From: Leptolyngbya sp. FACHB-8
Lineage (GTDB): Bacteria > Cyanobacteriota > Cyanobacteriia > Elainellales > Elainellaceae
DNA: 64,000 nucleotides
Direction: 5' to 3'
NCBI RefSeq assembly: GCF_014695575.1
Contig: NZ_JACJOO010000047.1
Location: 1-64,000 of the forward strand
Of this stretch, positions 46,214-48,079 are shown piece after piece. A model generated the notes under the pieces. The model was not told the DNA's origin. It was given only the letters and a program-made list of their open reading frames with translations, and made no database searches. Positions within the stretch are counted from its first letter, which is position 1, and each line of letters opens with the position of its first letter. Both the position numbers and the translations under genes were made by a program.

Positions 46214-47308
46214 TTAGCTCTGAACCACTGGAGCACTCAGGCTTACTGGAGTTGCGTCACCTCCTGCCAAAATGTTGGGGAAGTGGTGCGTGTTGGGTGC
46301 ATGCATGGCCTGAATTCCTAGCATGGCTCGATTGACAAGATCCGCATCGGTAGGAATCACTTTACCTTGACTATCGAGAATGGATTGATTGAAGTTAAAG
46401 CCGTTTAAATTGAAGGCCATAACACCAACCCCAGCAGCAGCAACCCAAACGCCAACTGTTGGGAGAGCAGCCATCAGAAAGTGAACGACACGGCTATTTC
46501 GGAAGGCGGTAGCAGGGATCAACAAGCGGCCCAGGTACCCTGCGTGCCCTGCCAACAAATTGTAAGTGGTTTCCTGTTGTCCAAACCGGTAGCCCATGTT
46601 GGCGGATTCCAGGTCAGAGGTTGTGCGAATCAGGCTGGCAGATACGAGAGAACCATGCACAGAGCTGAGCATAGCTCCGCCTAATACCCCAGTAACGCCG
46701 AGCATGTGCAGCGGGTGCATCAGGATGTTGTGATCGGCCTGGAAAGCAAACATGAAGTTGAAGGTGCCCGAAATGCCCAGGGGCAATCCTTCCGAGAAAC
46801 TGCCCTGACCTATGGGATAGATCAGCAGCACGCTAGTGGCGGCCAGGACGGGAGCGGAGAAGGCGATCGCTACCCAAGGCCGCATCCCCAGGCGGTAACT
46901 CAACTCCCACTGTCGTCCCAGGTAAGCAAAAATTCCAATTAGGAAGTGCAGCACAATCAGTTGATAAGGCCCACCGTTATAGAGCCACTCAGGAATTGAT
47001 CCCGCTGCCCAGAGAGGGTAAAAGTGCAGTCCTATAGCGGCTGAGGTGGGGATTACGGCGGCAGTCAGAATATTATTGCCCCCTAGCAGCGAACCAATGA
47101 TAGGTTCCCGAATTCCATCCAGATCGACGGGAGGAGCCGCAACGAAGGCAATGCTGAAGGCGATCGCTGCCGCTGCCAGGGTGGGAATCATCAGTACTCC
47201 AAACCAACCAACGTAGAGGCGATTGTTGGTGCTAGTAATCCATTCACAAAAATGATCCCAGGTCCTGAATACATCTAATTCAGGCCGATGTTGAATAGTG
47301 GTACTCAT
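46214..47308 (-). CDS. psbA: Divergent photosystem II D1 protein (rogue/sentinel-like PsbA)
   Basis: A full-length D1 homologue of 364 residues (canonical 360). Aligned by eye to standard D1, it keeps Tyr161, His190, the P680 ligand His198, the iron ligands His215 and His272, Gln130, Asp61, His332 and His337. It lacks normal manganese-cluster ligands: Asp170 is Glu, Glu189 is Asp, Glu333 is Ala and Asp342 is Ile. The QB-site Ser264 is Ala, and one residue is inserted between His252 and Gly253. The Gln-Asp pair typical of chlorophyll f synthase is absent (Leu-Gly at 127-128). This fits the 'rogue' or 'sentinel' D1 group, thought to form photosystem II without water oxidation. The ATG at 47308 follows AGAGGAAA. 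An upstream frame from 47428 adds non-D1 sequence. Confidence 0.9.
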
Positions 47309-47415
47309 GATGACGTTTCCTCTGCGAGAGGTCACTTCACCCAGATCTATTCCATTCCATTTAAATTGATAGAAACGCAGAGAATGAGAGCATGTCTGAG
47401 CCCCAGAAACGGTAG

Positions 47416-47444
47416 ATTTTTCGTGCAATGTGCCTACGAAAAAT
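47416..47444 (-). promoter_or_regulatory. Candidate operator dyad upstream of psbA
   Basis: A perfect 9-bp dyad, ATTTTTCGT and ACGAAAAAT, separated by 11 bases. It lies 108-136 bases upstream of the psbA ATG, outside any gene. It is not followed by a T tract in a useful position, so a protein-binding site is more likely than a terminator. The regulator is unknown. Confidence 0.45.
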
Positions 47445-47677
47445 GTTCCATCAATGCCCTTTTAGGTGAATGAGGTAGGATGCAAAATTTGAGCGATCGC
47501 AAACAAAAGGCTTTGAAGTGTAATGCTTTGTTCGCAAATTAAGAATCGGAATTGGAGCGAACTGAAGTGAAGCCAATAATCTTAACTTTCCTAATTTTAG
47601 ACCGATTGCCTCGTCTAGTTTGTAGAGAAACACTAAGTTTTATGGCACTTGTTTTATCCAAAGAATCACAAACAAAA

Positions 47678-47744
47678 TAACCTGTAATTCTTTTTGGGGA
47701 AGGGGTGGTTGCGCCACCCCTTCCCCAAAAAGAATTACAGGTTA
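47678..47744. repeat. Perfect 31-bp inverted repeat
   Basis: Arms at 47678-47708 and 47714-47744 are fully complementary, with the loop TTGCG. It lies about 370 bp upstream of the psbA start and not behind a gene. The length and perfection suggest a recently arrived palindromic element. Confidence 0.75.
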
Positions 47745-47857
47745 ATAAATACGCGATCCAAGGTGGGCGCAGTTTTGCTTCCTTTGCAGGAAGTTCATCA
47801 CCATATCTTTTTAACAGGAAAAAGTGTAGAACATTCGACGCATCCTCATACTGAATT

Positions 47858-47981
47858 AACGTCAGTTCGGGATAAGCCGAACCGCCCATTATTGCGTGCG
47901 CGACGCGCACGCAATAATGGGCTTTTTCGAGTGCCGCGCGAAGCGCGGCACTCGAAAAAGCCCTTAACCAGAACTGAGGTT
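47858..47981. mobile_element. 124-bp MITE-like element, copy A
   Basis: Terminal inverted repeats of about 20 bp (left AACGTCAGTTCGGGATAAG, right end complementary with a few mismatches). The flanks carry a 5-bp direct repeat GAATT (47853-47857 and 47982-47986), as left by transposition. Inside are two back-to-back hairpins, a left one of about 17-bp arms and a right one GAGTGCCGCGC/GCGCGGCACTC. Copy B at 62207-62330 has the same length, ends and right hairpin. No open frame. Confidence 0.75.
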
Positions 47982-47999
47982 GAATTACTATAAGAACCC

Positions 48000-48056
48000 G
48001 TTTGAAAAGGTTGATTATTCGTGTCTAAAGGGCACAGAAAACCAACCTTCTCAAAC
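48000..48056 (-). terminator. Hairpin after the class B PBP gene
   Basis: Arms of 14 bp with one mismatch (48000-48013, 48043-48056) around a 29-base loop, 24 bases beyond the PBP stop. Confidence 0.5.
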
Positions 48057-48079
48057 CAGTTTAGAAATCCGAGTTCAAG

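Follow-up and report, generated by a model that had tools for sequence, protein, structure and literature searches.

The window (the whole stretch of DNA that was analysed, 64,000 nucleotides, which is C42:1-64000 of a 6.93 Mb assembly that is 99.47% complete) carries on its minus strand an intact frame for a D1 protein of 364 residues, with its ATG at 47308, its stop at 46214, no internal stop, and an AGAGGA stretch shortly 5' of the ATG that is a possible ribosome site. The protein aligns end-to-end with solved D1 chains (its residues 1-363 to their residues 1-359, E 5.4e-169), as a first-pass annotation of the sequence had claimed, and the best solved chain, 8tow_A, also has Glu at 170 in the alignment. 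Codons were read directly for L127, G128, F147, Y161, E170, N181, D189, H190, H198, H215, H252, A264 and H272 and, in the C-terminal part, for H332, A333, H337, H338, I342, L343 and A344. Altered in standard numbering are thus E170, D189, A333 and I342, while Y161, H190, H198, H215, H272, H332, H337 and A344 are retained. The features are as follows (residues by codon readout):

46214..47308, minus strand: Group 2 (rogue/sentinel) D1 gene, 364 amino acids (from the frame, the alignment to solved D1, the tree and the group residues)
46217..46270, minus strand: Leu343-Ala344 and a 16-residue C-terminal extension
46271..46273, minus strand: Ile342, replacing Asp342
46298..46300, minus strand: Ala333, replacing Glu333; His332 is retained at 46301-46303
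46505..46507, minus strand: Ala264, replacing Ser264 (QB hydrogen bond)
46544-46546, minus strand: His252, with one additional residue after it
46733..46735, minus strand: Asp189, replacing Glu189
46790..46792, minus strand: Glu170, replacing Asp170
46817..46819, minus strand: Tyr161 (YZ), retained; its partner His190 is at 46730-46732
46859..46861, minus strand: Phe147 (Y147F, near the D1 pheophytin; also from the alignment rows)
46919..46921, minus strand: Leu127, with Gly128 at 46916-46918; the QD motif of ChlF is absent
47309..48079, no strand: intergenic region 5' of the rogue D1 gene (promoter scan and upstream comparison)

The surroundings of the pheophytin and of QB are changed by Y147F, F255L, Q261P, S264A and N338H and by the residue inserted after H252, none of which the first-pass annotation had listed. 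The C-terminal extension has the same length as in the 360-residue standard copies of the genome. Against the NCBIfam psbA profile the window protein, the one protein tested, scored 591.1 bits, slightly below the cut-off of 596.05, so that rogue D1s may escape automatic naming.

Group 2 D1s are reportedly the proteins named rogue D1, sentinel D1 or PsbA4 in work attributed to Murray in 2012, Cardona in 2015 and Wegener in 2015. They were collected by searching for M-H-A-P-N-x-H-x-F-P at the DNA level and for six peptide patterns taken from the window protein, MHAPNTHH among them. A scan of named genomes gave 38 loci for D1 relatives, 25 of them classed as Group 2 by their residues, and within the class the motif pattern picked out 27 of 388 genomes, counting the window's own, a tally in which any genome with a motif-divergent rogue D1 is scored as a non-carrier. 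With identical proteins entered once and those under 300 amino acids omitted, the comparison comprised 41 Group 2 rows (the window D1 included) and 25 standard rows; L065, a Group 2 gene in two frames, was omitted from tree and counts. This gene, the rogue D1 of a genome that is 73% complete (G382), could be split either by decay or by sequencing error. Ten positions part the two sets at a level of at least 90% in each (G80A, S85T, Y147F, F211L, F255L, Q261P, T286A, E333A, R334P and N338H), and at every one of them the window D1 agrees with Group 2.

A maximum-likelihood tree of 75 rows used D2 as its outgroup and took in three ChlF rows, identified by the QD motif, as well as a candidate D1' and a likely far-red D1, the last two labelled from their gene place and residues. 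The window D1 falls within a starred clade of seven Group 2 rows (support 98/95), inside an unstarred clade of 40 Group 2 rows (92/90) that includes Crocosphaera watsonii WH 8501. L068 lies outside these other 40 rows, near the root and with weak support (78/19), so that Group 2 is not demonstrated as a single clade; further, ChlF joins standard D1 and is not the earliest branch, and the outgroup sits on a very long branch. Neither the root nor the sequence of the deepest splits can therefore be taken as certain. Placement of the window D1 with the 25 standard rows was rejected (AU test, p-AU 0.0129), and standard D1 identity is ruled out by this test and by the residues. Chlorophyll f synthase is likewise ruled out by the absence of the QD motif and by the separate branch; there is no exact match to the QD-motif pattern in this genome, and residues 127-128 are canonical (Leu127 occurs in 14/25 standard rows). 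On residues and phylogeny, then, the window D1 is a member of an already described group, the Group 2 (rogue/sentinel) D1s. The first-pass annotation, which had called for such a tree and had described a rogue- or sentinel-like D1, not a chlorophyll f synthase, with canonical residues at 127-128, Tyr161, His190 and His198 kept, and Glu170, Asp189, Ala333 and Ile342 in place of the usual residues, was correct in each respect.

Standard D1 has D170, E189, E333 and D342 in 25/25 rows, and all four differ in the window D1. That four Mn ligands are altered, as first noted, holds as a count of changes but not as a count of losses, since D170E is conservative. In the literature, which we cite here from extracts, D170E is given an activity similar to wild type (PMC8047818), little effect as well as loss of oxygen evolution is cited for it (PMC10535343), and E170 and D170 are both found in Group 2 (PMC4773611). 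The plain ligand losses are therefore E333 and D342, and E189D is probably disabling. Ser264, present in 23/25 standard rows (the other two are an odd QB variant, see below), is Ala264 in the window D1. What the protein has in common with standard D1 (Group 4) and with the low-oxygen D1' (Group 3) is the fold, YZ-His190, His198, His215, His272, His332 and His337. It resembles Group 1 (ChlF, super-rogue D1) in its lost Mn ligands, Phe147 and Ala286, but lacks Q127-D128, retains His252 (Gln in the three ChlF rows) and stands on a separate starred branch.

Likeness to Group 2 lies in the absence of the C-terminal Mn ligands E333/D342 and in the altered QB site; an extract of PMC4582080 describes rogue D1s as altered around the water-oxidising complex and QB and as about 65% identical to conventional D1, compared with 67-68% between the window D1 and its own standard copies. 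The window D1 differs, however, in having Asn181, which occurs in only 1/40 other Group 2 rows (His in 33, Tyr in 6), and in retaining Leu343-Ala344 with the 16-residue tail, so that C-terminal cutting is possible; the LDLA motif is reported lost in PsbA4 (PMC9640542, extract) and the cleavage site lost in atypical D1 in general (PMC12096807, extract). Several Group 2 D1s (L022, L025, L016, L028 and L036) do not extend past residue 344, L022 and L025 stopping exactly at Ala344, and these short D1s have no C-terminal extension to cut.

Other psbA copies, for which the first-pass annotation had suggested looking, are present in this genome as four further complete D1 genes (67-68% identity to the window D1) and four fragments, each at a contig end; the full standard ligand set is found in all four complete copies and in the long fragment (C30). 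A same-genus genome, G159 (99% complete), has no rogue D1; its two full-length D1s have standard ligands and 67-68% identity to the window protein, and its two D1 fragments are standard over their extent. Both genus genomes examined also carry a second odd D1 (C4:27160-28257 in the window's genome, equivalent to L089:9961-11058, with its counterpart on G159:C64, L113 and L124:8937-10013). The two proteins are 93% identical and group together within standard D1 (100/99 in the tree); their Mn ligands are complete, and the loop around Ser264-Phe265 (QB) is replaced by one that is five residues longer, FGRL[VI]GRTNEIILGV[ND]ANSR. No further gene is common to both genomes within 19-20 kb around it. 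This second odd D1 might serve QB tuning or resistance to a QB-site inhibitor.

It seems likely, although well short of certain, that the window D1, as a Group 2 D1, replaces standard D1 in photosystem II (PSII) to give a form without oxygen evolution that is used when water oxidation is unwanted, independent of nitrogen fixation. When made, the rogue D1 would most likely take the place of standard D1, and the resulting PSII would keep its chlorophyll, YZ-His190 and the non-haem iron. Since it would be unable to build the Mn4CaO5 cluster and would bind the exchangeable quinone weakly, such a PSII should evolve no oxygen, and the cell could use it in darkness, at low oxygen or during repair, when splitting water brings no gain or does damage. 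For the window D1, dark expression, PSII assembly, the lack of oxygen evolution and weak quinone binding are what we infer by analogy with its relatives. According to extracts of the published work, Cyanothece PsbA4 in a Synechocystis 6803 strain without its own D1 left it incapable of photosynthesis (as cited in PMC9640542), the PsbA4 protein was detected at 10 h dark but not at 2 h light (PMC9640542), and Cyanothece, like Crocosphaera, builds up rD1 during the dark phase (PMC9732122). Deletion of psbA4 in the native host Cyanothece had mild effects only, and dark PSII regulation there was largely independent of psbA4 (PMC9640542, extract). These mild effects, together with the retained Leu343-Ala344 and tail, tell against the simple reading.

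The gene is under purifying selection, since pN against six Group 2 relatives (0.13-0.15) lies far below a pS that is saturated at 0.77-0.80. With dS saturated for the window gene, a dN/dS ratio was obtained only from four close pairs elsewhere in Group 2, where it is about 0.08-0.12. A pseudogene is ruled out by the intact frame and the same difference between pN and pS. Across the 41 Group 2 rows Y161, Q165, H190, H252, N298, H332 and H337 never vary (collection by the C-terminal motif partly builds in invariance at 331-340), H215 varies in 1/41 and H272 in 2/41. The Mn site is freer: position 189 is D in 18, Q in 6, N in 6, A in 5, E in 5 and R in one, Asp at 342 is found in none of the 40 rows with a letter there, and position 170 is a carboxylate in 37/41. 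The metal site thus tolerates change and the YZ pair is conserved, which hints that YZ is still functional but does not prove it, because about 35% of the 333 compared sites are invariant among the Group 2 rows and the C-terminal motif was in part set by the sampling itself.

The same pattern could be read as that of a light-driven oxidoreductase in which YZ and P680 oxidise a substrate different from water, much as ChlF acts on chlorophyll, the lost Mn ligands and the lost tight QB site being part of the new chemistry. We regard this as possible if doubtful. The seven residues invariant in 41/41 rows alongside the variation at 170, 189 and 342 are in its favour, as are F147 and A286, common to the window D1 and the three ChlF rows; but single-site invariance says little where so many sites are invariant and some C-terminal ones are fixed by the motif, F147 is also found in 6/6 D2 rows and may be old (A286 is in two of the six, the other four having Ser), and the window D1 has no QD motif. 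Moreover, His198 is Ser or Gln in 6/41 rows, which alters P680 itself. This residue, the P680 chlorophyll ligand, is Ser in the five Group 2 D1s of family f5 (L069-L073, L027 being the same contig as L073) and Gln in L068.

A broader claim, that Group 2 D1 is a working photochemical enzyme and not an off-switch, with YZ oxidising either a substrate or a different metal, strikes us as unlikely. If it were true, the donor pocket would have been rebuilt around His332, His337 and the new His338, electrons would exit via the altered QB site, and purifying selection would be preserving this enzyme in a cyanobacterium whose genome yielded neither nitrogenase nor NiFe hydrogenase in our searches.

It is improbable, in turn, that a donor-side metal site persists in the protein in diminished or altered form, for instance for Mn oxidation without water splitting, built from E170, D189, H332, H337, the new His338 and the C-terminal carboxylate. 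The carboxylate at 170 in 37/41, H332 and H337 in 41/41 (partly fixed by the motif) and His338 in 37/41 rows, where it is new relative to standard D1, would suit such a site, and Mn oxidation by an atypical D1 is discussed as speculation in an extract of PMC8047818. Against it, position 189 ranges over D, Q, N, A, E and even Arg (once), two carboxylates are gone through Ala333 and Ile342, His181 (33/41 Group 2 rows) is absent from the window D1, and the AlphaFold model of the window protein (run with 23 relatives, 19 Group 2 and 4 standard) has a mean pLDDT of 39.4 and gives no usable structure.

The surroundings of the gene bear on whether it is used at all. No match to a sigma-70-type promoter was found in the scan of the upstream intergenic region 47309..48079, and when the upstream sequences (up to 450 bases) of the window gene and 23 other Group 2 genes were compared, none matched that of the window significantly (best E 0.57); shared upstream 8-mers were only ribosome-site-like, A+T-rich or GCGATCGC words, in at most 7/24 genes. 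A conserved gene cluster was rejected: when the sequence around 25 Group 2 loci was searched at E 1e-15, over stretches that differed in length and reached 10 kb at most, none of the ten neighbouring window genes was matched. No Rfam family matched in the window at gathering score. Positions 47678-47744, 5' of the rogue D1 gene, form a perfect inverted repeat of 31 nt with a 5-nt loop, a dispersed palindromic repeat matched at 26 places of the genome, its own included; 47884-47922 and 47919-47963 each hold a further perfect inverted repeat. The missing promoter match, the absence of all ten neighbours beside the 25 related genes and the lack of a rogue D1 in G159 would fit a relict without selection that is rarely or never made, but with the frame intact, pN far below saturated pS and 10/10 group residues retained this is very improbable.

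Nitrogenase had been named at first as an example of what switched-off oxygen evolution may protect. In this genome (99.47% complete) the best model matches reach 219.7 bits for nifH (cut-off 394.35) and 38.3 bits for nifD (cut-off 653.55), so that neither gene was found above cut-off and the link is not supported here. Presumably these weaker matches come from the chlorophyll-biosynthesis relatives of nitrogenase, as one would expect. Across the class the two do associate: nifD is above cut-off in 17/27 rogue D1 carriers vs 100/361 other genomes (Fisher p 0.0003; the latter figure by subtraction from 117/388 in total). After stratification by family an odds ratio of 3.9 remains (p 0.016), based on hand-made counts that omit families f26 and f29 (2/27 carriers, both without nifD over the cut-off) and score as negative six f32 genomes with nifD in pieces. 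Ten of the 27 carriers are without nifD over the cut-off, one of them with a split nifD and two less than 90% complete. The link between rogue D1 and nitrogenase is thus statistical across the class and not a rule, and other carriers without nif genes are also reported in an extract of PMC9640542. Despite the class-wide association, protection of nitrogenase in this organism is scarcely credible, being contradicted by the absence of nifH and nifD above cut-off unless nif lies in the unassembled part; the 10/27 carriers without nifD over the cut-off also count against it. No match to the NiFe hydrogenase large subunit or to PFL-like families was found in the genome, both being found in control genomes, so that a low-oxygen life style is without support from these markers.

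The replacement of standard D1 in PSII, independent of nitrogen fixation, is therefore the reading that we prefer for a protein whose function is still called unsettled in extracts of PMC4773611 and PMC9640542. The residues tabulated here mark the donor-side and acceptor-side changes of the group and so supply testable positions. Further, a carrier in which no nif genes were found, beside a same-genus genome (G159) with nifD above cut-off and no rogue D1, offers a clean natural case that separates rogue D1 from nitrogen fixation.
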